NCBI GenBank assembly: GCA_016186175.1
Contig: JACPMB010000002.1
Location: forward strand, 1-40,700
DNA length: 40,700 nucleotides
Origin: Candidatus Peregrinibacteria bacterium
Lineage (GTDB): Bacteria; Patescibacteriota; Gracilibacteria; Peribacterales; Peribacteraceae
Direction: 5' to 3'
Of the stretch, positions 14,495-35,979 are shown piece after piece. Made by a program: the position numbers and the translations under genes. A model generated the notes under the pieces. The model saw nothing but the letters and a program-made list of their open reading frames with translations. It searched no databases and was not told the origin of the DNA. Each line of letters begins with the position of its first letter. Within the stretch, counting starts at the first letter, position 1.

Positions 14495-14848
14495 TCAGCG
14501 ATTTTCGCGATGCAACGTGACTGCAACGTGCGCGGACCCAGGAAGCGCGAATTTTTTCACAGCAACGGTCACTGCCGATGTCTTGTAGTTCTTAAGAATC
14601 GTTTGCGCGGCGTCTTCCGCAAAATACTCGATGGTTTTTCGTTCCTTCATCGCCAGCTCCCGCATGTCGTTCGCAACGTCAAAATAATTGATTGAGCGTT
14701 TCACGTCGTCCGATCTTGCCGCCGTTTCCGCATCAAAAGACATCTCAATCGTCACCAGGAGCCTCTGTTCGGTCGCGCGCTCTTCTTCGGATACCCCGAT
14801 GTGAGTCCAGAGTTCCAGATCGGCTATGGTGAGTGTGTCTACTGACAT
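14495..14848 (-). CDS. folB: Dihydroneopterin aldolase
   Basis: Cleaves dihydroneopterin to 6-hydroxymethyldihydropterin and glycolaldehyde, the step before FolK. The 117-residue protein is family length and begins MSVDTLTIADLELWTHIGVSEEER, with the usual active-site Glu region. Further on are NYFDVANDMRELA and YFAEDAAQTIL, and the catalytic Lys region VAVKKFALPGSAHVAVTL. The open frame runs upstream to 15061 only as a shadow of secD. The ATG at 14848 overlaps the secD stop by 10 bases, so translation is probably coupled to the secD message. This ties folate genes to a secretion gene, which looks like compact packing. Confidence 0.93.
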   Translation of the reverse strand: MSVDTLTIADLELWTHIGVSEEERATEQRLLVTIEMSFDAETAARSDDVKRSINYFDVANDMRELAMKERKTIEYFAEDAAQTILKNYKTSAVTVAVKKFALPGSAHVAVTLHRENR

Positions 14849-17310
14849 CGCTTCACGCCGAACAATTCTGGCCGTTCCGCCAAAGGAGTCTCGGCCAGTC
14901 TCCGCAAAAGCCATCGCGTCAAGGTCACTGCGGTGAACATCGAGAGCAGCGTCCCCATGCCGAGCGTGACCGAAAAGCCGCGCACTATTGATGTGCCTGC
15001 GCCAAAGAGAATGGCGCAGGTGATGAGCGTGGCGATGTTTCCGTCGCGGATGGCGGGCCATGCGTGCTTGAAACTGCTTTCGATGGCCGTCTTCACCATT
15101 TTCCCTTTTCGCAATTCCTCCTTTACCCGCTCGAACACCAGCACGTTGGCGTCAACCGCCATTCCGATCGAGAGAATTATGCCTGCCATGCCTGCGAGCG
15201 TGAGCACTATATAACTGCCGGAAAAAAACATCAGCGGGAGTTTAAGAATCGCGAACATCATGACGGCATAAAATACCAGAGCGATATCGGCCATTACGCC
15301 GAGCACACGATACATAACTATCATAAAGATCATGAGTATCGCCGTGCCGAGGAGAGCCGCGAACAACGACGTACGCAGCGCCGCTGAGCCAAGCGTCGCT
15401 TCCACGGTGTATTGTCCCACCAAATGAATGGGCGCCGGAATTGCGCCAGTGTTAAGGTCCTGCGCCAGGCGCCTGGCTTCGTCTATGTTGCTGCTGCCGG
15501 TAATGACGGCTATTCCGCCGGCTATTTCCTGCTGCACCCGCGGCTGCGATATCAACTTGCCTCCGACGAAAATCGCAAGCGGCTTGCCGACGTTCCGCTT
15601 GGTAAGTTCCTGGAACATAGTCGCTCCCTCTGCATCGAAGGCGATCTGCACCACGGGAATATTCGTGGAGCCATCGAGCGACACGACGGCAAAGCGGAAC
15701 CGTTTGCCGTCCAGCGGAGTGTCCTTCCATCCGGTCGGTTCAAGCGAAAAAAAGAGCAGTCGCACAGTGATTGCCTGTTCCACGCTCTGCACTTCCCCGC
15801 GCTGAAGCCTGCCAGCTATGGTTTCGGAATGCGACAGCGCGTCATCCCCCGTGATCAAAAGTTCGTCGTATGTCGCGAGATCGGGACTGAGCTCGGCCGT
15901 CCGATCAAGCCGGATTATGTGGTAACCGAACTGCGTCTCGACCGGGCCGGCCAAATCGCCTGGTTGCTTTAGCGAGAACGCCGATTCTTCAAAGGCCGGC
16001 GCCATCACGCCGCGGCCGAACTCCCCCAGACGTCCGCCGTCCTTGCGCGACTCTCCGTCGGACTGTCCTCTTGCGATCTGCTCGAAATCTGCTCCGTCAC
16101 GCAGCTCATTCATAATCCGCGTCGCCTTTTCCAGCGCCTCCTCTTTCGTGCGGATGATGTCGGCGCCGGCTCCGGACGCTCCGGAGTACGAAACAAGAAT
16201 ATGACTTGCCGCTATCTGCTCGCCCCCGCGCCGGAGTTTGCCGAGGAACAGGATTCGTCCCGTGTCGTCGGTCTGCAGGCTTTTGAGCGCTCCGGGAGTG
16301 AGGCTGCGCAGGGCGGCCGCCACGCGCGCGTCGCTTTTTTCGTCCAATTTTACGTCTTCGTGATGTGCGGCGCTCACACCGGGTTCTGTCCTTGCAAGAT
16401 GGGCAAAAGCCTGCGCAGCTTCGGTGATGACGCGCCCGGTGCCTGTCGGGCCACGGAGCACCTCGGCCAGAAAGACACCCGGGACATCCGCCTCAGTCGC
16501 AGTCCCGTCTGGTTGCTGCCTTGATTGCTGGACGGATCCTTCGAGCAGCGCGACCTTGCCAGGACCAGCAGTCCAGAGCGAATCAAGTCCTTTCGGCATC
16601 TGGTCGCGGAAAAGCATCTTGCTCGGCTGGTATGCCATGCCGAGCTGACTTTCCAGGTCCTGCCCCGCTTTCGTCAGGGACGATCCGCTATCTGCAATTC
16701 GTCGCATGGCGGCGGCGGCGCGCTCCCGCACTTGCAGTTTGTAGTCATCCGAGGCTTCCGTCATCTGTTCCTTGAATTCCAACTGGATAGTCTTACCCAC
16801 CACCTTGATGCACTCCTGCACGTCCACGACGCCGGGACATTCAACAAGCAGATGGCGCTCGTCGCCGACGTAAGAAGGCGTTATGGTCGCCTCGTTTACG
16901 CCGAGCGAGTTTATGCGACGCTCGAGCACGATGCGGATCGCTTCCACCAGACCGCTCTGCTGATCCCTGATGCTCTGCAGCTGCGCGAGAGCGATATCCA
17001 GTTTTTGTGCGGCGGCGCCATTCTTCTTAAGGCGATCAATCTCCGCGTTCACATCTTCCAGCTGCTTGCGTATTTCCTCTTCCGAAATGCGAAAATCCAG
17101 TTGCGTGCCGCCGGCAAGATCGAGCCCCAGATGCAGCCTGGATGTCCTAAGGAATTCGGGCGCCCAGTCTTTCCATTTCTGCGGAAGAGCCAGGAACAGC
17201 GCGATGGCGCCGATAGCAATCGTCACGGAGGGCCAGAAGAATGTGCGGCGGGAGAACACGAGTCCGGTGGAGGATAGCAGACGCGTGATGCACGGAAAGG
17301 GCGGGCGCAT
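14839..17310 (-). CDS. secD: SecD with an embedded parvulin-type PPIase domain
   Basis: SecD uses proton-motive force to help SecYEG complete protein export. This 823-residue protein has one N-terminal membrane helix (about 24-43), the first periplasmic block HLGLDLAGGTQLDF (60-73), RRINSLGVNEATI, the conserved IPVVQIAFDAEGATMFQELT / PLAIFVGGKLISQPRV region (551-592), and five C-terminal helices with GMAVDANVLVFERVKEEL. Inserted at about 366-470 is a parvulin (PpiC) domain: ASHILVSY, GGRLGEFGRGVMAPAFEESAF, GPVETQFGYHIIRLD. A fused peptidyl-prolyl isomerase on the outer face could help fold emerging proteins. Family SecD proteins without the insert are much shorter. No secF follows; folB overlaps the stop by 10 bases. 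Confidence 0.93.
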   Translation of the reverse strand: MRPPFPCITRLLSSTGLVFSRRTFFWPSVTIAIGAIALFLALPQKWKDWAPEFLRTSRLHLGLDLAGGTQLDFRISEEEIRKQLEDVNAEIDRLKKNGAAAQKLDIALAQLQSIRDQQSGLVEAIRIVLERRINSLGVNEATITPSYVGDERHLLVECPGVVDVQECIKVVGKTIQLEFKEQMTEASDDYKLQVRERAAAAMRRIADSGSSLTKAGQDLESQLGMAYQPSKMLFRDQMPKGLDSLWTAGPGKVALLEGSVQQSRQQPDGTATEADVPGVFLAEVLRGPTGTGRVITEAAQAFAHLARTEPGVSAAHHEDVKLDEKSDARVAAALRSLTPGALKSLQTDDTGRILFLGKLRRGGEQIAASHILVSYSGASGAGADIIRTKEEALEKATRIMNELRDGADFEQIARGQSDGESRKDGGRLGEFGRGVMAPAFEESAFSLKQPGDLAGPVETQFGYHIIRLDRTAELSPDLATYDELLITGDDALSHSETIAGRLQRGEVQSVEQAITVRLLFFSLEPTGWKDTPLDGKRFRFAVVSLDGSTNIPVVQIAFDAEGATMFQELTKRNVGKPLAIFVGGKLISQPRVQQEIAGGIAVITGSSNIDEARRLAQDLNTGAIPAPIHLVGQYTVEATLGSAALRTSLFAALLGTAILMIFMIVMYRVLGVMADIALVFYAVMMFAILKLPLMFFSGSYIVLTLAGMAGIILSIGMAVDANVLVFERVKEELRKGKMVKTAIESSFKHAWPAIRDGNIATLITCAILFGAGTSIVRGFSVTLGMGTLLSMFTAVTLTRWLLRRLAETPLAERPELFGVKRCQ

Positions 17311-23401: not shown

Positions 23402-24904
23402 TCAAAAAAGTTGCTGGGGCGTTTTTGGCGGTAAGCGATATTGCTCAACTAATTTCTTTGAGATAGGCAGTTTTTCCAATCCTCTAGGTTCTACTTTTAT
23501 TGCTCCTGATCCGTACGATTTTCCCACGAGTTCCAAGTTAGAAACTGTATCTGGATGCTGCAAAATAGCCCATAGACCTTCAATAAAATTCTCATCATTT
23601 GATCTCGGATATACACAAAGGAAACCCGTCAACGGAATAACATCCGCCTCATTTTTTATGAACCGTGCATTTCGTCTTCCAAGATATGCAAATAAAAACT
23701 TTGGAGTTTTTCTCACCTCCATTTTATACCAAGGTTTCCTTGTAGAAATGAGAGCTCTCTTTGGAAGCCCCTCTTTTTCTCCTGCCAAAATATAATTTTT
23801 TACTGAACTTGGCATATTTTCCCATGTATGCCCATTCGGGAAAAATAGAAAGGTCGGACGTCCCTTTTTTTCCAGATGCGAAAGCGTGTCCTCTGTAAAA
23901 TGTGCTCTTTCTGCATCCCTTGTCCTCCCCACTGCTCGCAAGAGAAATGCGTCAGGAATGCCGATTTCTTTTGCTTTTTCTCGTGTAAGAAAGAAAAAAT
24001 CATTAGCTCCCGTAGCAACACCGCGCATTACTTTGGCAAAATCCACGAGAGTAAATTCACAATCATTTTCTATTCTCGGTGGCCTCGAAAGTCCGGTAGC
24101 AAGAGCCTCGTTTAAATCTCGCTGGTAAACAGCAAGATCGCCATAACCATCATTTACCAAATCATTTTTAGTAAATTCAAATAATTCCTCACTTTCAGAC
24201 ACCAAACATTTTACCCAGATAATTTTTTCTTTTGGCGTGTCGTTCTGGATCAGTAAAATGACTGCATTTGTATCTACTCCTGGAAAGGGAGTGGCTTTGT
24301 GATCAAATGTAATGACTCCATCAATACAAAACTTTTTTGAAATCCAGTTCCAAAGATCATTGGAAAACACACCTTCGCAAGTATCAGCTGGCATAATGAA
24401 GGCGAGCCGACCACCCCTATCAAGCAGATGAAGCGCTTGTATCAAAAAGTAGATATGCAGTCCTGCGCGCCCATCCAGCGTACCTCCAAGCGTACGGAGG
24501 CTGAGCATGTGAAAGCTGTTTTTGACTTTTGGCGCAAGACGATGATGGCGGATGTACGGTGGATTTGCGACAATGGCCTTAAATAGTTTCTTTGGTGGGT
24601 CTAGGATGAAATCCCGTACTTCTAAGTCAGCATCGTTATCGAAGATACCTTCTGCTCGTGCTTCATCAATAACTACCGGGTCAATGTCTATGCCATAAAA
24701 CCTTTTCTCTGGAGCAACATTCTTAAGAGCAGTATAAAATGCCCCCTTGCCGACTCCAGGATCGAAAACGCAGTCCGCTCCTTGTGCGACATAGGCAACC
24801 ATTGCCTCTGCAATCCAATTTGGAGTCCAAAACTGGCCCTTATCGCGAAGTCTTTCACGATCGATCCATTGAGTAGGCAGTTTTTGATGAATCACTGTCT
24901 GCAT
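23402..24904 (-). CDS. Gamma-class adenine-N6 DNA methyltransferase of an AccI-like R-M pair
   Basis: Protects host DNA by methylating adenine at the site cut by the adjacent endonuclease. The protein of about 500 residues has the SAM motif FDPGVGKGAFYTALKN, the acidic motif YGIDIDPVV and the catalytic NPPY in IVANPPYIRHHRL, with a C-terminal target-recognition region. Order of motifs (SAM site before NPPY) marks the gamma class, as in M.TaqI and Eco57I-type proteins. The ATG at 24904 (MQTVIHQKLPTQWI) gives a 13-base overlap with the end of the endonuclease gene. Codon use is more AT-rich than the housekeeping genes to the left, consistent with acquisition. Confidence 0.88.
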   Translation of the reverse strand: MQTVIHQKLPTQWIDRERLRDKGQFWTPNWIAEAMVAYVAQGADCVFDPGVGKGAFYTALKNVAPEKRFYGIDIDPVVIDEARAEGIFDNDADLEVRDFILDPPKKLFKAIVANPPYIRHHRLAPKVKNSFHMLSLRTLGGTLDGRAGLHIYFLIQALHLLDRGGRLAFIMPADTCEGVFSNDLWNWISKKFCIDGVITFDHKATPFPGVDTNAVILLIQNDTPKEKIIWVKCLVSESEELFEFTKNDLVNDGYGDLAVYQRDLNEALATGLSRPPRIENDCEFTLVDFAKVMRGVATGANDFFFLTREKAKEIGIPDAFLLRAVGRTRDAERAHFTEDTLSHLEKKGRPTFLFFPNGHTWENMPSSVKNYILAGEKEGLPKRALISTRKPWYKMEVRKTPKFLFAYLGRRNARFIKNEADVIPLTGFLCVYPRSNDENFIEGLWAILQHPDTVSNLELVGKSYGSGAIKVEPRGLEKLPISKKLVEQYRLPPKTPQQLF

Positions 24905-25836
24905 AAAGAATGTAAAATATCCAGTGCCTCTGGGCAAAGATCAAGTCGTCCCCCATCAAACTTCACATAAGGAAGAATGTGTCCGTTCTTGTCTTCAACA
25001 CAGGCAGATACAAGGGATGGCTCCTCAGTGGCGTTTCCAAGGCGATAACCATATCGATAATAAATTTTGTAGATCGATTTCTTAGTCGTAGCACCTCCGG
25101 GGGCCTGGAATGTTTGAATTGTTGGTTCTATAAACTCCTTTCTTATGAGTCGTTCCGCTTCGTTCAAAGAGATACCAAATGCCTGGTCGTAAAATACATG
25201 CCATATATGAATGGGAGCATGATTTTGCTTTTGCCATTTTTTTAGCGGCATTCTGTCTTCTTCCTTGATGATTATCGTTGGCAAAACAGCGGCTTTCTTC
25301 AAACCGAGTTTTCCTTCCAATCTTTTTTGAGGGGAAAACTCTGTGGTATAGTCAGGCATCTTTCTGGATTTCCACAAACTGGTCTCACACTCGATTGCAA
25401 CTATCGCTTTCTTGAGCAAAGGCTGCAGTTTATTCTCTGCAACAAAGGGCAGTTCCTGAACGCCGCCGATACTTGCTAGGAATCTTCTGATCTCGCTCTC
25501 ATCCGACTTCCTAAAAAGAAGCAAATCAGGCCGCTTGATTTTTCCCAGTCCGGCTTTCTCCAATCTTTCAAAGTAAAGTTCAAACGCGCGGACGTCATTA
25601 GCTGGAGCTGTACCGCTTGGGCCGTAAGGAATGGCAAAATATTCGTCACCTCGATTGACAGCCTCGATGAGGCGATTTTCGCTCCAGACTCCTTGCGACC
25701 AACGCATCAAAAAATCGCTTCCTCGTAGGCGTCTCGGATTCAAAAGAAATGATGACCATGGCACATCGCCGTAGCCTCTGAGCGTGAACTCAATTTCCTC
25801 AATATCAACGCTGATGGATGATTCGAACGGATGCAT
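24892..25836 (-). CDS. Type II restriction endonuclease, AccI-like
   Basis: A 314-residue protein upstream of, and overlapping, a DNA methyltransferase gene. Recognisable blocks are QGVWSENRLIEAVN, YFAIPYGPSGTAPANDVR, ELYFERLEKAGLGKIKRPD, AIVAIECETSLWKSRKMPDY and SPQKRLEGKLGLKKAAVLPT, which I match from memory to the AccI family (AccI itself cuts GT/MKAC). The Asp of RPDLLLF and the acidic ECETS are candidate PD-(D/E)XK-type residues, with Glu where Lys is commoner. No truncation is seen. The endonuclease precedes the methyltransferase in transcription. The recognition site of this copy cannot be predicted. Confidence 0.72.
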   Translation of the reverse strand: MHPFESSISVDIEEIEFTLRGYGDVPWSSFLLNPRRLRGSDFLMRWSQGVWSENRLIEAVNRGDEYFAIPYGPSGTAPANDVRAFELYFERLEKAGLGKIKRPDLLLFRKSDESEIRRFLASIGGVQELPFVAENKLQPLLKKAIVAIECETSLWKSRKMPDYTTEFSPQKRLEGKLGLKKAAVLPTIIIKEEDRMPLKKWQKQNHAPIHIWHVFYDQAFGISLNEAERLIRKEFIEPTIQTFQAPGGATTKKSIYKIYYRYGYRLGNATEEPSLVSACVEDKNGHILPYVKFDGGRLDLCPEALDILHSLCRQ

Positions 25837-25912: not shown

Positions 25913-26302
25913 TTATAGTGTACGTTTGTACACCAACACATTCTTAATCCAATTCCACGACAAAGGATATTCCAACATCAGAGCTATGGATGCCGCCAGC
26001 AGTCCGATATCCCGCGACGTGATCTCAGTGATGCCGACCGTGATGAGTACAACGATCCAGTGGAGAGAAGCGAGTAGTGCACCGAGCCATGTCCACATGC
26101 CGATAACGAGGAGTAGGCCGATGACTATATCCAATACGGCCGTCTGGAGCATTGCTGCACGCATGCTGCCGGGAATCAGATGAGCGGCCCATGGTTGAAT
26201 GAGGGCAGCCCAATCATCGGGAGCTCGGTAGATGAGAATGCCGATCCAGAGGAATGTGATGCCCACTCCGACCCGGAGGATAGTCGAAGAACTTGCCTTC
26301 AT
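25913..26302 (-). CDS. DoxX-like small membrane protein
   Basis: A 129-residue membrane protein with four predicted helices (ILRVGVGITFLWIGILIYR; LQTAVLDIVIGLLLVIGMW; TWLGALLASLHWIVVLITVGI; IGLLAASIALMLEY). The RVGVGITFLWIGILI start and overall size fit the DoxX/DoxD-like family, whose members act with thiol or quinone redox partners. The ATG at 26302 overlaps the stop of the VKOR gene by 4 bases (ATGA); the frame is open upstream only as a shadow of that gene. The tight overlap argues for a joint redox function. The exact role is not known. Confidence 0.75.
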   Translation of the reverse strand: MKASSSTILRVGVGITFLWIGILIYRAPDDWAALIQPWAAHLIPGSMRAAMLQTAVLDIVIGLLLVIGMWTWLGALLASLHWIVVLITVGITEITSRDIGLLAASIALMLEYPLSWNWIKNVLVYKRTL

Positions 26303-26838
26303 AAGAGGGAGGGGAAGAAGAGAGAATGAATGAGGAAGAGCAGGCTCATGAGCCAGATCGTCCCGGCGGAAATGAGGCACCACACGCACCATGCGCGGAT
26401 CACTCGCCATTGAAGATACGTGAGGAACAGCGACATGATGCTGCCACTGATTAACAGAAAGGCGATCATTGGAACCCACAGGGACAGCGGCCTCGTGCCG
26501 GAGACGCTGAGTCCCAATATCAGTGCTATGACAAGGTAATAGGCAAACCCCAAGACATCATTCTTCACCAAGAAGAGACGGCTGTATTTGCTACGCAGGA
26601 CAATCTGACAATTTTCTCCACCCAGACAGACGGGATTTTCATTGGCTCTTCGAATTCTCACGAGATAGGATGTTTCGCTGATGCCGATGGCAGCCAGCGT
26701 GAAGAGTAGTGCGAAGAGCGTCATTAATGACAAGATGCTACTCCTTTTTCCGGACTTTCTGAATGCATTGTATTGGCGGGAAACCTTGAGGTATCTCATC
26801 GCATCTCCCATGCCCATGAGTTTGGGAAATTCGTGCAT
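26299..26838 (-). CDS. Vitamin K epoxide reductase (VKOR) family protein
   Basis: VKOR homologues reoxidise DsbA-like proteins using quinone, driving disulphide formation in exported proteins. The 179-residue protein has four predicted helices and both Cys pairs: C71 and C77 in the loop (NPVCLGGENCQIVL) and the active-site pair C151/C154 (AWCVWCLISAGT) at the start of a late helix. A Ser-rich first helix region (ISETSYLV) matches the family. No thioredoxin-like partner is fused or adjacent; the DoxX-like protein overlapping its stop may serve instead. The ATG at 26838 is kept; 26799 is an alternative. Confidence 0.88.
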   Translation of the reverse strand: MHEFPKLMGMGDAMRYLKVSRQYNAFRKSGKRSSILSLMTLFALLFTLAAIGISETSYLVRIRRANENPVCLGGENCQIVLRSKYSRLFLVKNDVLGFAYYLVIALILGLSVSGTRPLSLWVPMIAFLLISGSIMSLFLTYLQWRVIRAWCVWCLISAGTIWLMSLLFLIHSLFFPSLL

Positions 26839-26858: not shown

Positions 26859-27761
26859 TTACGCTATCGCCGACGTTGTTTTATAGCAGCTGCTATAAAG
26901 CAATATAGAATCACATGGAAAGGACGCCGGATAGGACTCCTCGCTCTCGATCACCCGTGAGTAGACGTTCTCGCAATTCGCGTCCTCGCCCGTTTGGGGT
27001 GGGCAAAAGACCATATGACTGTACACTTCTTTGGTTGTTGCTATGCCTATTCGCTTCTCCGCCATTTGGCAATAATCGGGAGATATATCTATTCCGATAA
27101 AGTGTCGGCCAAGTTCCTTGGCGGCCACGGCGGTTGTACCTGAGCCCATGAATGGATCAAGAATAATCCTCGCTGTGGCGGATGAGATAATCCGGTTAAT
27201 GAGAGCAGCGGGAAAAGCAGCCGGATGAGGATTATTCATCTCCTGAGTAAACTCCCAAACATCTCCGAATGCATTTGCCTTAGGGACAAGCCTGAATTTT
27301 GGTTTTGCAATGAGGTAGATAACCTCATACGTTGGCAGAAAGTACCCTGCATTGAAGTTGAAACCGCCTTTTCGTTTCCAGATAATGATCTGCCTCACAG
27401 GGAAGCCAGACACAATGTCTCGTCTGTCTTGCAGAAGCCCTGCCTGCACTCTCCATTTGTGATTATAGAAAATTGCACCGTCGTCTTTGGTGACTCTAAG
27501 CATTTCTGTCAGACACTCACGTTGCCATTTAGCATACTCGCCATGTGGCATCGCATCATGGTGATGGGAGTATCCGTTCATGAGTGCGGCTCCCGACCAT
27601 TTGCCTCCTCTCCCATCTTTCATGCCGTTTCCCGTTGAATTTTTTAAATTATAAGGAGGACTAGTCACGACAAGATCAATGCTTTTATCTGGCATTTTCT
27701 GCATCAATTCAATGCAGTCTCCACAAAGAATCCTATCAATAAAGTCATTTGGGAATTTCAT
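26859..27761 (-). CDS. Beta-class DNA methyltransferase, apparently orphan
   Basis: A 300-residue DNA methyltransferase with the catalytic motif TSPPYN (residues about 33-38) ahead of the SAM motif LDPFMGSGTTAVAAKELGR, which is the beta-class order typical of N4-cytosine and some N6-adenine enzymes. Other blocks are GDCIELMQKMPDKSIDLVV, IIIWKRKGGFNFNAGYFLPTYEV and DVWEFTQEM. The last 45 residues are unlike the family core and include a 20-bp palindrome in DNA, so the native end may have changed. No intact nuclease adjoins; the next frame upstream is a stump of a type IIG-like enzyme. It may be a solitary regulator or a relic. Confidence 0.88.
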   Translation of the reverse strand: MKFPNDFIDRILCGDCIELMQKMPDKSIDLVVTSPPYNLKNSTGNGMKDGRGGKWSGAALMNGYSHHHDAMPHGEYAKWQRECLTEMLRVTKDDGAIFYNHKWRVQAGLLQDRRDIVSGFPVRQIIIWKRKGGFNFNAGYFLPTYEVIYLIAKPKFRLVPKANAFGDVWEFTQEMNNPHPAAFPAALINRIISSATARIILDPFMGSGTTAVAAKELGRHFIGIDISPDYCQMAEKRIGIATTKEVYSHMVFCPPQTGEDANCENVYSRVIESEESYPASFPCDSILLYSSCYKTTSAIA

Positions 27762-28164: not shown

Positions 28165-28554
28165 TCATCCCTCTTTTGCTTTGTCGATGATCGAGCGCAC
28201 GATGGCATCGACCTCCTGCGGCATATCGCCCAGATCGACGTGCGGGAAGAACTGCGGGAGGACGACGGGGCGCATGCCCGAGAGGAAGACTGTTCCCTCG
28301 TGAGCGTAGACGTTGATCTTACAGGGCATGCAGAGACCGATCTTGGGGTCGGCGCGGAGGAACTCGCTCGCGTACTTCGCGTTGCAGAACTCCACGATCC
28401 TGTACGGATCACGCTGGATGCCCTTCTCCGCGAGTGTCGCCTGTACGTCGTGAACGTGGAGTACGCGCATCCCCGCCTTCGTAATCTCCTCCTGCACGCT
28501 TGCAAACGCGGTATCGAAGTCTTTGCTCGTTGTGACAGTGTAATCAAAGTCCAT
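28165..28554 (-). CDS. DUF302 family protein
   Basis: A 129-residue cytoplasmic protein of the DUF302 family, a small alpha/beta fold often found near metal- or redox-related genes. Seen are FDYTVTTSKDFDTAFASVQEE at the N-terminus, GMRVLHVHDVQATLAEKG, a Cys in YRIVEFCNAKYASEFL and the paired Cys in IGLCMPCKINVYAHEG. The CMPC pair is typical of the family and could bind metal or cycle as a disulphide. It diverges from the Met-rich SHOCT gene with only 34 bases between starts, so they share a control region. The biochemical role is not established. Confidence 0.88.
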   Translation of the reverse strand: MDFDYTVTTSKDFDTAFASVQEEITKAGMRVLHVHDVQATLAEKGIQRDPYRIVEFCNAKYASEFLRADPKIGLCMPCKINVYAHEGTVFLSGMRPVVLPQFFPHVDLGDMPQEVDAIVRSIIDKAKEG

Positions 28555-28588
28555 GCGTGTATACTACGGGATACTTCACTCCCACGCC

Positions 28589-29278
28589 ATGCTGCACCGC
28601 TTCTCCGTCGCTCTCCTCACTGGCACGCTCCTCCTCTCGCCCATCGTCTACGCGCAAGAAACGGGCGGCATGCCTTCCGATGATCACACCGCACGCGAGG
28701 AAACGGAGGGGAAAGAAATCTGGCAGAAGATGGAACGGAAAGAAGCGAATTGCAAGGATCTCACAGACGAGCAATTCGCCGCCCTCGGCGAGTACTTCAT
28801 GGGGGAGATGACGGGCGATGCCCACGAGGCGATGAACGCGATGATGACACGGATGATGGGTGAGGAGGGCGAAGAACAGATGCACGCGGTCATGGGAAAG
28901 CGCATGAGCGGATGCGGAGGGGACGGGACGCTCCCCTTGGGTAACGCGGGAATGATGATGCCCATGATGGGTGGCGGCATGATGGGAGGAGGCTGGAACA
29001 ACGCATCTCCGATTATGGGAGGATGGTCAAACGGCGCTGCTCCCGATACGATGTCGTCCATGATGGGATTTGGATCGGGCTTCGCGCCTTTCGGCATGAT
29101 CTTCATGCTCCTCTGGTGGGTGCTCATCATCGCCGGGATCGTCGCATTGGTGAAATGGATCTCGCGCACCTCCGGTACGGCGGGAGGAAACTCCGCGCTC
29201 GACATCCTGAAAGAGCGCTACGCCAAAGGAGAAATCGACAAGAAGGAGTTCGATGAGCGCAAGAAGGATCTCTCCTGA
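28589..29278 (+). CDS. Exported Met-rich protein with a SHOCT tail
   Basis: About 229 residues. A signal peptide (MLHRFSVALLTGTLLLSPIVYAQE) is followed by an acidic region, then a Met- and Gly-rich stretch (GMMMPMMGGGMMGGGW), one membrane helix (FGMIFMLLWWVLIIAGIVALV) and a C-terminal SHOCT motif (ALDILKERYAKGEIDKKEFDE). The Met-rich segment would lie outside the membrane and resembles copper(I)-binding clusters, so a role in copper handling is inferred. The ATG at 28589 is preferred over 28553, which would put 12 polar residues before the signal. It diverges from a DUF302 gene. Confidence 0.8.
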   Translation: MLHRFSVALLTGTLLLSPIVYAQETGGMPSDDHTAREETEGKEIWQKMERKEANCKDLTDEQFAALGEYFMGEMTGDAHEAMNAMMTRMMGEEGEEQMHAVMGKRMSGCGGDGTLPLGNAGMMMPMMGGGMMGGGWNNASPIMGGWSNGAAPDTMSSMMGFGSGFAPFGMIFMLLWWVLIIAGIVALVKWISRTSGTAGGNSALDILKERYAKGEIDKKEFDERKKDLS

Positions 29279-29396: not shown

Positions 29397-31634
29397 CTAC
29401 TGCGAAATGGTTGTATCCCATCCTGTCGCAGCAACCCGCGAGAGGAACCTGCTTCTTTGTCGCATTCGCGCGGCATCCATGAGCATGCGCCCAGCCCATC
29501 GGTAAACGTTGAATTCATGCAATACGCCACGCAAGCTGCGCATGCGATCACGCTGTTCCTCGGGAGACATCGTTAAAGCAAGATGGAGAGCCTCCGCACA
29601 TTGATCCAGATGGTAGGGATTCACAATGAGCGCTTCCGGAAGCTCTCTCGATGAGCCGGTGAATTTGCTGAGCAGCAATACGCCCTGTTCGTCATCTCGT
29701 GACGCAACAAACTCCTTTGAGACGAGATTCATCCCGTCATGGAGGCTGTTCACGAAACAGAGTTCTGCGGCTCGGTAATGATCAAGGACGTCTTCGGCTT
29801 CACAGTGATGCGTACTGAGAATGACCGGCTTGTAGACACCTGAACCAAATCGCTGATTGATGCGATCTGCGGTACTGCGCACTTCCGCGCCCAACTCACG
29901 ATACCGCTCAATGCGCGAACGCGAGGGCGCTGCAACCTGCACGAACGTAAAGCGTCCAATCCATTCTGGATGCAGCTCCAGTAGTCGTTCGACTGAGAGG
30001 AATTTTTCCGCGATCCCCTTCGTGTAGTCGAGCCGATCCACTCCGACTCCCAGAAGACAATCTTTTGCAAGACCATAGCGTTTGCGAATAATGCTGCGGG
30101 CGTCCTGCACGGGTTTCGCCTGCCGGAGCAGACGACCGGGGAATTCAATGGAGATCGGATAGTGATTCACCGCACACAGTTCGCCTCCGTAGGAAATCGT
30201 CCAGGACGCGCGATCGACTCGGCATTCGAGGAAGCGTTCCGCGGTTCCGACGAAGTTCATGTCGTGCTGGCGGGTATGAAAGCCGATGATGCTGCTTCCA
30301 AGGAGGCCGTCGAGGATCTCCTCCGTCCACGGGCAAATGCCGAAAGCCTCGGGATTCGGCCAGGGAATATGCCAGAACGTGATGATCGTTGCATTGGGCA
30401 ACTTTTCGCGCAGCATCCGGGGCAGGAGTGCGAGCAGATAATCCTGCACGAGGATGACAGGATCATCAGTTTTCACTTCTTCCAGAATCGCTTTTGCGAA
30501 CTTCTCATTGACGCGCTTGTACTGCTCCCAGTCGCTTGTGCGAAACACGGGTCGAACATGAGCGATATGACAAAGCGGCCAGAGTCCTTCGTTGGAGAAG
30601 CCGTAGTAGTACCCACTTTCCTCTTGTTCAGTCAGCCATACACGACGGATGCGGTATGCGGGATGATCCGGCGGGACGGCAACACGATCGTGCGCATCAA
30701 CGAAGTCGCGATCCGCTGATCCGCTTCCGTGGGCTACCCATGTCCCCGAACAGGCACGCATGATCGGTTCCAACGCCGTTACGAGACCGCTCGCAGGAGT
30801 CTGCACTTCGATGTGATCGTCTCGCTTTACATGAATATAGGGTTCCCGATTCGAGACGACGATGACTTCATCACCCGAAAGTTCCTTATGCAGGAGCTCC
30901 TTGAGTGCTCGCGGCGTCCACGTCGTCTGGCTGTCGTCCCTGAGCCTCCTATCCGTTTCGAGATCCCGGATGAGCTCACGCAGATCCCGCACGATGGGCT
31001 GCAATTCGGGATGCGTACCGGGAGCGAGCGGATGGCGAAAACCATTGCTGCGAAAAAGCGCCCGCGCTCCGGATATCCATCCGCGCCACGTGAGCCATGC
31101 CATGAGCGTCGTCACGGCCGCTACGATGACGCTGACGGCGAGGAATACATACAGGATGTATTGCTTCGTCGCGGCACTGCGACGTTGAATGAAGCTCATA
31201 TCATGAACGAGCACAAGCTGGCCAAGCGTGCCGCCCGAGCCCTGTATGACATGGAACGCGACGTGCAGAGGACCGCTCGGTTCCTGTAGCACCTGACTCG
31301 CCAATTCCCCGCTCCCTGTTGCCGGACAGGTGACATCGGTCGGTAACTCTCCGCTCTTATAGGCGAGCAGCCCCTTCTTGTCGCAGAAACCGACCGCGTA
31401 CATGCGCTCGTCCTGCTTCACCCTGTCAAAAAAGGATTGTATCTTCGTTTTCGACCGCTCATCGAGCACATCAAACAGCGAATCATCAAGTGTGGAGGAG
31501 ATAAGCTTGCTGCGCAGATCAAGATCCCGCACAAACCATTGCGCCATGAGATTCTCCATGAGTGGCACGACAACATAGGCGATGATGCCAATTGCAATAA
31601 ACAGCGGGACGACGAACCGTAGAAAGAGTCGCAT
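29397..31634 (-). CDS. otsA: Membrane-anchored GT20 trehalose-6-phosphate synthase with sensor-like N-terminus
   Basis: GT20 enzymes join UDP-glucose and glucose-6-phosphate into trehalose-6-phosphate. Residues about 255-735 of this 745-residue protein are a full GT20 domain: VVSNREPY, WHIPWPNPEAF, VGVDRLDYTKGI (phosphate-binding Arg and Lys) and HDGMNLVSKEFVA. Ahead of it are a membrane helix (7-28), an outward-facing domain of about 130 residues, a second helix (158-182) and a helical linker, the layout of bacterial receptor proteins. Typical OtsA proteins are near 470 residues and soluble. A related GT20 such as glucosylglycerol-phosphate synthase is possible, but the adjacent OtsB favours trehalose. 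It is the last gene of an otsB-GH15-otsA run, 9 bases after GH15. Confidence 0.9.
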   Translation of the reverse strand: MRLFLRFVVPLFIAIGIIAYVVVPLMENLMAQWFVRDLDLRSKLISSTLDDSLFDVLDERSKTKIQSFFDRVKQDERMYAVGFCDKKGLLAYKSGELPTDVTCPATGSGELASQVLQEPSGPLHVAFHVIQGSGGTLGQLVLVHDMSFIQRRSAATKQYILYVFLAVSVIVAAVTTLMAWLTWRGWISGARALFRSNGFRHPLAPGTHPELQPIVRDLRELIRDLETDRRLRDDSQTTWTPRALKELLHKELSGDEVIVVSNREPYIHVKRDDHIEVQTPASGLVTALEPIMRACSGTWVAHGSGSADRDFVDAHDRVAVPPDHPAYRIRRVWLTEQEESGYYYGFSNEGLWPLCHIAHVRPVFRTSDWEQYKRVNEKFAKAILEEVKTDDPVILVQDYLLALLPRMLREKLPNATIITFWHIPWPNPEAFGICPWTEEILDGLLGSSIIGFHTRQHDMNFVGTAERFLECRVDRASWTISYGGELCAVNHYPISIEFPGRLLRQAKPVQDARSIIRKRYGLAKDCLLGVGVDRLDYTKGIAEKFLSVERLLELHPEWIGRFTFVQVAAPSRSRIERYRELGAEVRSTADRINQRFGSGVYKPVILSTHHCEAEDVLDHYRAAELCFVNSLHDGMNLVSKEFVASRDDEQGVLLLSKFTGSSRELPEALIVNPYHLDQCAEALHLALTMSPEEQRDRMRSLRGVLHEFNVYRWAGRMLMDAARMRQRSRFLSRVAATGWDTTISQ

Positions 31635-31643
31635 ATATCTCGA

Positions 31644-33491
31644 TCAGGATACACTATCCGGCAGGTTTTTCTCTCCAATAAGTGGCTGTTCAAGCGGCGG
31701 TGCACCGAGGAAGCGCGAAAGGTATATGGCGCTGTTGATGAGCCCGACGTGTGTGAATGCCTGCGGAAAATTCCCAAGAAACGCGCCCGTCGTGGCATCA
31801 ATCTCCTCGGCATACAGTCCGAGGTGGTTTCCCATTTGCAGGAGTTTCTCGAAGTGTGTGCGTGCCTCTCCGACGCGGCCGGCGAACGCGAGGGCATTCA
31901 CCAACCAGAAGCTGCAAAACCCGAAGGCACCTTCTTTTTGGTGATGCATGCTGCTGCGATAGACGAGTACCCCGTCGGCAAGTTCACGCTGGATTGTGTC
32001 TAGCGTATGGGAGGCATGGGGATGATCCGGTGACAGGAATTCAAGAATAGGGAAGAGCAACGCCGTTGCATCAAGCACATCCGAACCGTATGCCTGCACG
32101 AAGGACATTCGCTGCTCGCTGTAGCCCTGTTCCATCACTTGTTCGCGGATGGCGGCGCGTTCCCTCTGCCACCGCGCGGAATCCACGTTCCAGTGGTGTT
32201 CTTCGGCAAGTCGGATGCCACGATCGAGCGCCACCCAGCACATAACTTTTGAGTAGATGTAGTGCTGAGGTTCCGCGCGCAGCTCCCAAATCCCGTTATC
32301 GGGTTCTCGCCAAATCTCGCAGACATAATCGACGATGTCTCTGAGCACTCCCGAGAGTGCATGATCCATGCCGGGATGCAAATGTTCCGACCGGAATACC
32401 GCTTCGAGGATCTCTCCATAGATGTCGTGCTGACGCTGTTCCGATGCCCCGTTCCCGATGCGCACCGGGCGCGAATCGAGGTAGCCGCGAAGATGCGGCA
32501 ATTCCTCCTCGCCCCTGAGCACCGTGCCATGCAATGGATAGAGCACTTTGAGATCAGCGGGCCTGCGGCCGCTCGTCACGAGGATATCGGTGATCCAGTC
32601 GAGGAATTCACGCGCGTCGTTGAGGTGACCGAGCGTAGTGAGCGCCTGGATCGTGAACGACGTATCGCGCATCCAATTGAATCGGTAATCCCAGTTATCC
32701 TTTCCTCCGGGAATTTCCGGCAGTGAGGCCGTCGCGGCCGCAGCGATCCCTTTTCCGCCCGCGAGGATTTTCAGGACAAGAGCGGAACGCGTGACCTGCT
32801 CTTTCCAGAGCGGAAGAGACAAACAACTTTCCGCTTCACATTCCGAACTCCAACGGTTCCAAAATTGAATGGTCTTTTCAAGGCTGCGGTGCGGCGGGGG
32901 AATATCTTCTCTTTCCATATTGCCGTAGGTGCAAATAAAGGAGAGATCATCCCCCTCCTCCAATGTCACGACAGCTTCCGCGCCGTTTGTGCCGATAGTG
33001 AACGGACAATGGGCGTGTAGTCGCAGAACATCCTCGGTTCCCTCGACAAGCAGTCCTCCGTTCACCGCAGAAAGCGTCGTCACACCCCGGGCGTAGTCGA
33101 GACGCGGATCGAAGAGAATGCGGCAGCGCGCCTTGCCCGCAAGGCAACGGACGAGCCGGTAGAGGGCAGGCAGGCGATGCTGTTCCCGTTCCTCAAAGCT
33201 GAAGCTGCTCATGTGCATCCAGTCGGTCACCTCCAACGTGCCGCCGTCACATGAAAATTCGGTTCGCAGCACATTCGTATTCAGATGGTATTCCTGAACA
33301 GCGGTCTCGAATGGATCGGCCGGTGCGATGGAGAACGATCCACCTTTTTCGGGGTCGATGATGGCGGCAAAAATGCTCGGAGAATCGATTCTCGGCAGGC
33401 AACACCAGTCGATGGAACAATTCTTGCCGACAAGCGCGCACGATCCCAAATTGCCGATGAAACCATAGGAAGCGATAGGGTGGAAGGTCAT
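31644..33491 (-). CDS. GH15 glycoside hydrolase (glucoamylase or trehalase type)
   Basis: A 615-residue cytoplasmic protein of the GH15 family, which releases beta-glucose from alpha-glucans and, in mycobacterial-type members, from trehalose. The N-terminal beta-sandwich starts IASYGFIGNLGSCALVG; the (alpha/alpha)6 barrel holds WDYRFNWMRDTSFTIQAL, the general-acid Glu region EPDNGIWELR and the general-base region GLYAEEIDATTGAFLGNFPQ. No signal peptide is present. The ATG overlaps the otsB stop by 4 bases and the stop lies 9 bases before otsA, so all three are coupled. That context favours trehalose or an alpha-glucan feeding it as the substrate; sequence alone does not decide. Confidence 0.92.
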   Translation of the reverse strand: MTFHPIASYGFIGNLGSCALVGKNCSIDWCCLPRIDSPSIFAAIIDPEKGGSFSIAPADPFETAVQEYHLNTNVLRTEFSCDGGTLEVTDWMHMSSFSFEEREQHRLPALYRLVRCLAGKARCRILFDPRLDYARGVTTLSAVNGGLLVEGTEDVLRLHAHCPFTIGTNGAEAVVTLEEGDDLSFICTYGNMEREDIPPPHRSLEKTIQFWNRWSSECEAESCLSLPLWKEQVTRSALVLKILAGGKGIAAAATASLPEIPGGKDNWDYRFNWMRDTSFTIQALTTLGHLNDAREFLDWITDILVTSGRRPADLKVLYPLHGTVLRGEEELPHLRGYLDSRPVRIGNGASEQRQHDIYGEILEAVFRSEHLHPGMDHALSGVLRDIVDYVCEIWREPDNGIWELRAEPQHYIYSKVMCWVALDRGIRLAEEHHWNVDSARWQRERAAIREQVMEQGYSEQRMSFVQAYGSDVLDATALLFPILEFLSPDHPHASHTLDTIQRELADGVLVYRSSMHHQKEGAFGFCSFWLVNALAFAGRVGEARTHFEKLLQMGNHLGLYAEEIDATTGAFLGNFPQAFTHVGLINSAIYLSRFLGAPPLEQPLIGEKNLPDSVS

Positions 33492-34354
33492 GCGCCGGGG
33501 AAAGAACGGAGGAGCCTGTCAAGGAATACGGCTACCTCATCGGTGTTTTGAAGCACGTAGTGCGCAGCCGTTTTTGCCGCTGATGGATTGCCGACGCGGA
33601 TAGTGATGCCATAGTCCATCAATGCGCGAAATGCATCTTCGTCCGTTTCGTCATCTCCGAGATACACTGGCAGTGTTTGATTGTGCCAATCCGAACCGTG
33701 TCGCTTTTCCAGAAGAAACCTGACCGCTTTCCCTTTATCCCAGTCCACATTTGGTTGCACTTCCACCACGCTCTTTCCAGAACTCACGCGCAAGAGGTGA
33801 TCAGCATTCCGATCTGTGACAAGTGTTGAAAAATCTTTAAGAATCATAGGGATCTGCTCAGGCTCAGCCAAACGATAGTGCACGGCGACAACGAGTACTT
33901 TATCTTCGACGATCACGCCCGGATACGGTTGCATGGAACGCTGGAGCGTTCCGGCAAGAGTACGCATTGCATCGTACATGTGACTTGGAATTTGCTGGAC
34001 CTGCTGTATGCCTGGACCGTCGATTTCGAGTCCATGATTCCCTGCATACGTGATCCCCGGAACACCGATACGCATGCGAATTTCCGCAAGTGAACGTCCA
34101 CTCACAATGTTCAGGTGCAGTGAATCGCGATCAGAAAGCCGTCTGAGAAGATTCAGAGTCTTCTCGTCAAGACGGGCATCCTGCGGACGGGGTGCAATGG
34201 GAGCGAGAACACCGTCGTAATCGCAAAAAAGGTCTACATGCCCGATCGTGCGTACGGCTTCCTCGACATCACTCAATGCATGCTGCAAAGAGCTGGATAT
34301 CGATGGATCCGTGCTGTTTTTTGCGTCATCGGTCGTTTTTTGCGTAGGAGACAC
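33488..34354 (-). CDS. otsB: Trehalose-6-phosphate phosphatase
   Basis: Dephosphorylates trehalose-6-phosphate to trehalose. This 288-residue HAD-superfamily protein has motif I DYDGVLAPIAP (nucleophile Asp), motif II in LNIVSGRSL, the Lys of WDKGKAVRFLL and motif IV GDDETDEDAF, plus TYAGNHGLEIDGPG, which is typical of OtsB. The start is a GTG at 34354, followed by about 30 low-complexity Ser/Thr residues. It heads the otsB-GH15-otsA run. A TATACT hexamer at about 12 bases upstream could be a -10 box, which would give a very short leader; this is tentative. Confidence 0.94.
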   Translation of the reverse strand: MSPTQKTTDDAKNSTDPSISSSLQHALSDVEEAVRTIGHVDLFCDYDGVLAPIAPRPQDARLDEKTLNLLRRLSDRDSLHLNIVSGRSLAEIRMRIGVPGITYAGNHGLEIDGPGIQQVQQIPSHMYDAMRTLAGTLQRSMQPYPGVIVEDKVLVVAVHYRLAEPEQIPMILKDFSTLVTDRNADHLLRVSSGKSVVEVQPNVDWDKGKAVRFLLEKRHGSDWHNQTLPVYLGDDETDEDAFRALMDYGITIRVGNPSAAKTAAHYVLQNTDEVAVFLDRLLRSFPGA

Positions 34355-34405: not shown

Positions 34406-34969
34406 TCACCCCAGGGTTCTCGTTGCAAGGATGATGAGGAGTATTCCCATGGTATTGAGTCCGAAACACAGCAAGGCGACATGCCGCTCTTTCAGTTCCG
34501 TCACGCTGCCGAGCAGCATCATGCCGAACTCGTCCGGGAGCGGCGACCCGATGACAATCCCCGCGAATGCCCAGAGAATGTAGTTTCTCATGCGCTCGGA
34601 AACCCTTTCGTGATGGAGAAGCGAGTGGATCCAGAGAATCGGTCTCGAAAACTGAATCCGGTGGATTTCATCATGAAACGCCGAGTAGCGAACGATGCTG
34701 AAAATGAAGAGATCTGAGAGTAGTGCTCCAATCCCCGCAAGCGGCGCACCGATGAGCGGATGCACTTCGTGTCCCATCTCCACGAAGATCGCGATGCCGA
34801 AAGGCGCGGTGAATCCGTAGCTAAAAAGCATGCCCCCGAGAAACATCGACGCATATCCGTGTCCGTTCAATGCATGTCCGAACCAATCGAGCGCACCGAT
34901 ATGGTACAGCACATACGCGAGGATGAAGCTGCCGCACAGGAGACAGAGTTTTGGATATTGGCGCACCAT
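34406..34969 (-). CDS. Conserved multi-pass membrane protein, function unknown
   Basis: A 187-residue protein with about five predicted helices (LCLLCGSFILAYVLYHIGAL; YASMFLGGMLFSYGFTAPFGIA; LIGAPLAGIGALLSDLFIFSIV; YILWAFAGIVIGSPLPDEFGMM; VALLCFGLNTMGILLIILA). Charged residues cluster between helices three and four (RYSAFHDEIHRIQFS). The GALLSDLFIF and PLPDEF segments vaguely recall DedA/VTT proteins, but I would not assign it there. The ATG at 34969 (MVRQYPKLC) lies just before the first helix; the frame is open to 35197 only as antisense of the ROK upstream region. It lies 51 bases upstream of otsB on the same strand. Confidence 0.7.
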   Translation of the reverse strand: MVRQYPKLCLLCGSFILAYVLYHIGALDWFGHALNGHGYASMFLGGMLFSYGFTAPFGIAIFVEMGHEVHPLIGAPLAGIGALLSDLFIFSIVRYSAFHDEIHRIQFSRPILWIHSLLHHERVSERMRNYILWAFAGIVIGSPLPDEFGMMLLGSVTELKERHVALLCFGLNTMGILLIILATRTLG

Positions 34970-35076
34970 ATCATTATAGCAGAAATCGCTTGCACATGCG
35001 ACGGCCGGTTGCAAAGCAAGTACTGTCGAGGCCGTGTTATGCTGCGCTGAGCAGCACCACTTTTCCAAGTCGTATT

Positions 35077-35979
35077 TTGTCATCATCCTCTGCATCCATC
35101 CTCGGCATTGATCTAGGCGGCACGAAGACGGCGCTGACGCTCTTCGATGCGGCGACGATTGTTCCACGCACATCTCAGAGTTTTCCGACGGAAGCATCTG
35201 AAGGACTCGCTGCAGTCCAAGATCGTCTGCTGAAAGCAGTGAAGCTGATTTGCGCTCCCGATACCGTTGCCATCGGTCTCGGGGTGCCGGGGTTCATCAA
35301 TCCGAAGACAAAGCACGTTATTTCCATGCCGAACATTCCCGGTTCCGACAATGTGGATATTCGTCAGTGGCTTACCAGCGCCATCGGCCTGCCGGTGACA
35401 ATCGAGAATGATGCGCGTTGCTTCACCTATGCGGAAGCCCTGCTTGGCGCAGGCAAGGGACACCCCATCGTGCTGGGCGTGACTCTCGGCACGGGGGTGG
35501 GTGGAGGAATCGCCATCGACGGCACGCTGTTCCATGGAGGGCACGGCCACGCGGGTGAAGTGGGACATGCACTCCTCATGCCCGGTCAGCCTCCCTATCC
35601 GACGGAGGATCGACGTGGCGATGTCGAGCAATTCTTATCTGGCACGGCGATGGGCAAACGGTGTGAAGCAGCGCGGAGACCACAGGATTATCTGGAAGGG
35701 CACGTCTGCAGTTTCCTCCAACCGGAAGTGATCCGTGAAGTTGCGTGGTTCATAGTGAACGCCATGCACTTCATCGATCCATCCATTGTCGTATTTGGAG
35801 GCAGCACGGGAAGAGCTCTGAATACCCACTTGTCAACCATTGAGAAGGAGGTATCGGCATGGCTATTGCCTGGCGTGAAGCCGCCGGAACTTGCATGTGG
35901 CGTCCTTGTAGATGCGGCCGTCCGCGGTGCGGCGTTGCTCGCGGCTGCGGATACTGTCCCGCCAACGAAGTTTCCATAA
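35077..35979 (+). CDS. ROK-family sugar kinase, glucokinase-like
   Basis: ROK kinases phosphorylate glucose or related sugars with ATP or polyphosphate. The 300-residue protein has the ATP motif GIDLGGTKTALTLF, GLGVPGFINPKT, the catalytic Asp in ENDARCFTYAEAL, GVTLGTGVGGGIAIDG and GEVGHALL with the substrate-contacting Glu and His. The usual zinc loop (CXCGX2GCXE) is missing: GQPPYPTEDRRGDVEQF replaces it without any Cys. The start is taken as a TTG at 35077, just before the domain; an ATG at 34996 would add an odd 27-residue leader. It diverges from the membrane gene beside the trehalose operon, and glucokinase activity would supply glucose-6-phosphate to OtsA. Confidence 0.88.
   Translation: MSSSSASILGIDLGGTKTALTLFDAATIVPRTSQSFPTEASEGLAAVQDRLLKAVKLICAPDTVAIGLGVPGFINPKTKHVISMPNIPGSDNVDIRQWLTSAIGLPVTIENDARCFTYAEALLGAGKGHPIVLGVTLGTGVGGGIAIDGTLFHGGHGHAGEVGHALLMPGQPPYPTEDRRGDVEQFLSGTAMGKRCEAARRPQDYLEGHVCSFLQPEVIREVAWFIVNAMHFIDPSIVVFGGSTGRALNTHLSTIEKEVSAWLLPGVKPPELACGVLVDAAVRGAALLAAADTVPPTKFP

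Follow-up and report, generated by a model that had tools for sequence, protein, structure and literature searches.

A receptor-like trehalose-6-phosphate synthase with a predicted Cache-type outer domain in a small-genome bacterium and a wider GT20 clade

Compatible-solute synthesis is generally described as being controlled by transcription or by the allosteric action of cytosolic metabolites. The known trehalose-6-phosphate synthases (TPS) of the OtsA type, among them Escherichia coli OtsA, the M. thermoresistibile enzyme (5jij), and fungal Tps1 (6jbi), are soluble GT20 proteins with no membrane module. A single chain that carries both an outer sensor and a cytoplasmic enzyme is familiar from receptor enzymes such as the membrane guanylate cyclases and the HAMP-GGDEF cyclases, and the Cache sensor histidine kinases WalK, CitA, CusS, and DctB are built in the order transmembrane (TM) helix, single-Cache/PDC outer domain, TM helix, and helical linker. 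A large survey of Cache domains reported them with known signal-transduction outputs (PMC4822843). Trehalose synthesis has been noted in “Candidatus Peribacter,” small-genome CPR bacteria with genomes of 1.25 Mb, in a passage that makes no mention of a receptor architecture (PMC4736985).

Here, we analyze a window of 40,700 nucleotides from a “Candidatus Peregrinibacteria” genome (contig JACPMB010000002.1, positions 1 to 40,700), in which a gene at 29397..31634 on the minus strand (tps) encodes a receptor-like TPS. This protein shares with OtsA-type TPS the GT20 fold, the mapped catalytic and glucose-6-phosphate (G6P)-binding residues, and the partner OtsB, but it carries the membrane module that those enzymes lack, and its clade branches apart from OtsA, below the cut-off of the OtsA equivalog model. 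With the Cache histidine kinases it shares the arrangement of helices, outer domain, and linker but not the kinase, its output being a metabolic glycosyltransferase. Its one-chain union of sensor and enzyme is like that of the cyclases, which yield a second messenger, whereas the receptor-like TPS would supply the compound from which a bulk protectant sugar is made. We found no characterized membrane or receptor TPS in the full-text literature searched, which leaves out most subscription papers, and annotated plasmid homologues are named simply trehalose-6-phosphate synthase. The Cache sensor and the GT20 enzyme are each known; in that literature, no description appears to exist of a large clade in which the two are routinely combined.

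Layout, enzyme, and operon

The tps open reading frame begins with ATG and encodes 745 amino acids, and its full-length relatives are 53 to 67% identical; the initial annotation had the coordinates right and left the strand unstated. Hydropathy identified exactly two strong N-terminal helices, with peaks at residues 7 to 25 (2.68) and 160 to 178 (2.53) spaced by about 130 residues. This confirms the earlier proposal of two membrane helices around an outer domain of that length and removes the possibility that the helices are absent. TM1 (residues 7 to 25; 31560..31616, like all parts of the gene on the minus strand) falls within a modeled helix of residues 2 to 58, and TM2 (residues 158 to 182; 31089..31163) falls within a modeled helix of residues 147 to 196. 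The intervening outer domain (residues 26 to 157; 31164..31559) would be placed outside the membrane by the TM hairpin together with the cytosolic substrates of GT20. A cytoplasmic helical linker (residues 183 to 255; 30870..31088) leads from TM2 to the GT20 catalytic domain (residues 256 to 722; 29469..30869).

GT20 is the sole Pfam domain found in the protein (PF00982; residues 256 to 721; 404 bits versus a cut-off of 32.5; E 9e-121; profile positions 2 to 471 of 473), and Pfam models detected no HisKA or HATPase_c domain. By alignment with E. coli OtsA from MG1655, we mapped residues that we take to be catalytic or in contact with substrate: OtsA R9, G22, Y76, W85, D130, and H154 correspond to R263, G283, Y343, W352, D398, and H422 here, and OtsA R262, K267, R300, D361-L365, and E369 correspond to R534, K539, R572, D633-L637, and E641. 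All are identical in 54 of 54 receptor-TPS members, in agreement with the original description of a complete GT20 enzyme that retains its UDP-glucose- and phosphate-binding residues.

Against the OtsA equivalog TIGR02400, the protein scores 405 bits, below the cut-off of 564.85, and it is therefore filed under GT20 and not as an OtsA equivalog. That shortfall, the long separate branch of the receptor clade, and two clade-marking departures (an invariant His632 for an OtsA Arg and His302 for an OtsA Trp) would fit a GT20 domain that makes a phospho-disaccharide other than trehalose-6-phosphate, in which case the receptor would control a different product. We consider this very unlikely, given that the mapped G6P- and UDP-glucose-contacting residues are all present, that a true OtsB adjoins tps and OtsB homologues lie beside most relatives, and that the glucosylglycerol-phosphate synthase model scores only 283 bits. 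The residues and the adjacent OtsB point instead to a product that is probably trehalose-6-phosphate, made from UDP-glucose and G6P.

The operon has the order otsB-GH15-tps. The trehalose-6-phosphate phosphatase gene otsB (33488..34354, minus strand; TIGR00685, 192 bits, above the cut-off of 68) overlaps the GH15 gene by 4 bases, and the GH15 gene (31644..33491, minus strand) lies 9 bases upstream of tps. The latter encodes a trehalase-like enzyme with GH15 (191 bits) and TREH_N (86 bits) Pfam matches, and its score against NCBIfam TreH1 is 363 bits, below the cut-off of 820. Beyond otsB lies a gene for a divergent ROK-family kinase (34951-35979), possibly a glucokinase. An RNA family scan of the whole window found no regulatory RNA element.

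Several other genes of the window are of interest in their own right. A SecD protein of 823 amino acids (14839-17310, minus strand) contains a PpiC/parvulin-type peptidyl-prolyl isomerase domain at residues 361 to 469, between SecD_1st and the P1 head, making it a translocase subunit with its own foldase. An AccI-like restriction endonuclease adjoins an Eco57I/N6-type DNA methylase at 23402-25836 (minus strand) and, with an additional N6/N4 DNA methylase at 26859-27761, makes up a restriction-modification island within this small genome. The region 25913-26838 (minus strand) encodes a VKOR-family protein and, overlapping it, a DoxX-like protein; as a pair, the two may form disulfides in the envelope. 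Convergent with tps is a gene for a Met- and Gly-rich membrane protein whose C terminus carries a SHOCT domain (28553-29278, plus strand).

Predicted folds of the outer domain and linker

An AlphaFold2 model of the tps product, built on a 52-row alignment, has a mean pLDDT of 82; within the outer domain, most of the chain reaches about 90. In this model, a long helix out of TM1 is followed by a second helix, five strands, and a helix into TM2. The top Foldseek matches of the outer domain are the sensor domains of WalK, DctB, and CitA (E 2e-7 to 1e-3; WalK 5is1, E 2e-4; CitA 1p0z, E 1e-3), and VIA aligned it with CitA 8biy (Z 11.7, 111 residues, 2.5 Å), WalK 4ywz (Z 11.2, 124 residues, 2.8 Å), and CusS 5ku5 (Z 9.6, 119 residues, 3.2 Å). 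The best structural match of the N terminus from TM1 through TM2 is WalK. At the level of sequence, the N terminus gave no useful match to solved structures; the CusS/CzcS heavy-metal sensor kinase model matches about half of the family's N termini (best E 4e-9) and, in the members checked, is colinear over approximately residues 1 to 185, covering TM1, the outer domain, and TM2. The fold matches, this colinearity, and the intact catalytic residues bear out the view that a sensor-kinase-like layout sits on a complete GT20 enzyme.

No curated Cache model scored above its cut-off in the member scores seen, and the window protein had no Cache match at all, so that Cache membership rests on the fold. 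CHASE4 gave weak matches in 6 of 54 members, and a divergent second form of the family (type B, below) gave weak matches to sCache_3_2 (22.8 bits versus a cut-off of 28.4), dCache, and Cache_WalK. The outer domain is thus predicted from the model to adopt a single-Cache/PDC sensor fold outside any Pfam Cache family. The initial annotation had raised a Cache- or PAS-type fold for this region and a HAMP domain for residues 183 to 250; the former agrees with the modeled structure, although Pfam Cache models stay below cut-off, and the latter is hinted at, short of proof. The model places helices around and after TM2 at residues 147 to 196, 212 to 234, and 241 to 252, with a low-confidence connector between the first two, but Pfam HAMP had no match in 54 members at E values up to 1. 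We compared the linker profile with one built from as many as 30 genuine Janthinobacterium HAMP segments: hhalign aligned the two in register with a probability of 36% when the TM helix was included and 6% when it was not, compared with at most 0.9% in ten column-shuffled controls. This weak profile match and the helix-connector-helix arrangement suggest that the linker resembles HAMP. Linker positions P213, W239, and L244 are invariant.

Distribution and phylogeny of the receptor layout

Scanning a single genome from each species yielded at least 583 confirmed relatives of the tps product. Among the best 80 of these, 76 align from residue 1 or 2 at 53 to 62% identity and the other four start within the same uninterrupted frame; the phyla represented are Nitrospirota, Pseudomonadota, Thermodesulfobacteriota, Bdellovibrionota, Myxococcota, Acidobacteriota, and Gemmatimonadota, and named isolates carrying the family include Janthinobacterium, Massilia, Noviherbaspirillum, and Sulfurisoma. 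OtsB adjoins most relatives and GH15 adjoins many. The same fusion occurs in a single-contig genome of the host's family (G030). Since it reads through in one frame in these 80 loci from many phyla and in the single-contig genome, we reject a gene-joining or assembly error, by which the N terminus would have been a separate gene.

We also surveyed 198 Nitrospirota genomes, 40 of which carry the receptor-TPS N terminus, nearly always on a GT20-sized open reading frame; the 31 strong matches are nearly all on frames of 745 to 838 amino acids. A promiscuous sensor module is rejected on this basis, as the N terminus occurs in these genomes almost only before GT20-sized frames. The possible exceptions are a weak match (7e-4) on an unclassified 851-amino-acid protein and a decayed frame of 207 amino acids. 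The latter (L173:1155-1775, genome G584) is a receptor-TPS copy whose match ends inside the outer domain, and it adjoins an integrase-like and a resolvase-like open reading frame.

The host phylum, in which families with genomes of about 1 Mb number well above 100, is consistent with the Candidate Phyla Radiation. Within the host phylum, the window's receptor form (type A) is rare, being present in 3 of 59 close relatives, including the window's own genome. Type B occurs in other families of the phylum (profile match E 1e-10 to 1e-15), and a type-B-like protein adjoining an OtsB-like open reading frame was also found in one Nitrospirota genome. The type B loci (L088-L093, L124, L126, L128-L132, and L174) keep the layout with two TM helices, but their Cache-like outer domain is divergent and has no Cys pair; type B probably senses something other than type A does. 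In a tree of 50 GT20 domains, types A and B form one clade (support 100/98). E. coli OtsA and the TPS/TPP fusions fall outside this clade, whose sister group consists of three soluble proteins from the host phylum. These soluble proteins (L133, L125, and L134) are about 500 amino acids long; one of them, L134, has no SNREPY motif and may differ in function. Inside type A, the window protein and those from two genomes of the host's family form a clade (100/100), and a contaminating contig is accordingly unlikely. Transfer into this small-genome lineage would be the simplest reading of a tree whose branch order around the window protein is weakly supported. The fusion flagged in the initial annotation therefore exists, but its description as possibly isolated was too narrow, as the receptor layout is the common build of the whole GT20 clade.

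Sensing, tethering, and the candidate signal

Conservation in the outer domain bears on whether it senses or merely anchors. In 90 type A sequences, W33, D37, R41, D75, E76, R77, C84, C103, D145, and R152 are invariant or nearly so, and type B also retains D37, R41, E76, and R77. Conservation of W33, D37, R41, E76, R77, C84, C103, D145, and R152 exceeds the needs of an anchor and so favors sensing. Nevertheless, of the folded parts of the protein, the outer domain is the least conserved, and its faster divergence relative to the enzyme is also compatible with relaxed constraint. A relative on Aminobacter aminovorans plasmid pAA02 (L171:3785-5602), 58% identical over residues 238 to 729, has a single N-terminal TM helix and a short linker but no Cache module or outer domain, indicating that, for members of this clade, anchoring at the membrane can be enough with no sensing. 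No gene annotated otsB adjoins it, and its neighbor is an amylo-alpha-1,6-glucosidase gene.

The main rival to sensing is accordingly a tether or scaffold, in which the N-terminal module would only dimerize the synthase and place it at the inner membrane, for example, beside a sugar uptake system or an envelope-stress site, and a kinase-derived Cache domain would no longer sense. The Aminobacter protein, the faster-varying outer domain, and the sub-cut-off Cache scores all speak for a tether, which we regard as a real though doubtful possibility: about 17 outer and juxtamembrane positions, including charged residues and the Cys pair, are more than 93% conserved in the 90 sequences, and the whole Cache-like domain has been retained in two divergent forms and many phyla.

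The best explanation, to which we give about an even chance, is a receptor enzyme in which an outside ligand or the state of the envelope gates the attached GT20 domain. The single-Cache domain outside the membrane would bind a small ligand or sense the envelope, TM2 and the HAMP-like helical linker would relay the change inward, and this would alter the activity or assembly of the GT20 domain, which would make trehalose-6-phosphate from UDP-glucose and G6P. OtsB of the same operon would convert the product to trehalose, and the GH15 enzyme may degrade it.

Osmolarity, offered in the initial annotation as an example of the signal, finds nothing specifically in its favor, and the two invariant outer cysteines allow for redox too. 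Cys84 (31383..31385) and Cys103 (31326..31328) are present in 90 of 90 type A sequences and absent from type B. This pair, together with the VKOR-family gene in the same window, whose product could in principle make disulfides, makes redox a live option, in which a reversible Cys84-Cys103 disulfide would set synthase activity according to the redox state of the envelope. We consider it unlikely, as type B lacks the pair and the invariant cysteines of type A may simply form a structural disulfide. Among the nearest structural relatives, the sensed signals are carboxylates, metals, or the state of the cell wall. The citrate-contact residues of CitA, judged by eye, are seemingly not conserved in the outer domain, and ligands change readily within the Cache/PDC fold.

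The window is part of contig 27 of a metagenome-assembled genome of 0.90 Mb that is 82% complete. No separate histidine kinase was found in this assembly, its sole HATPase_c match having a GyrB-like sequence; the evidence is weak because about 18% of the genome is absent from the assembly, but it is suggestive that a one-chain receptor enzyme would suit a cell with no detected histidine kinase. More broadly, we hold it somewhat short of an even chance that these proteins are widespread bacterial ligand-gated trehalose-6-phosphate synthases, in which an outside signal, through a Cache domain and a HAMP-like linker, directly sets the rate of a primary-metabolic glycosyltransferase with no kinase, second messenger, or transcription involved, including in very small genomes with no detected histidine kinase.

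A bulk biosynthetic glycosyltransferase as the output of a Cache domain would extend the list of reported outputs (PMC4822843). If the receptor reading is true, the transmembrane receptor fused to the pathway's first committed enzyme would switch protectant synthesis directly in response to stress, and an outside signal could turn trehalose production on or off in one step. The presence of the family in the named isolates makes this testable now.
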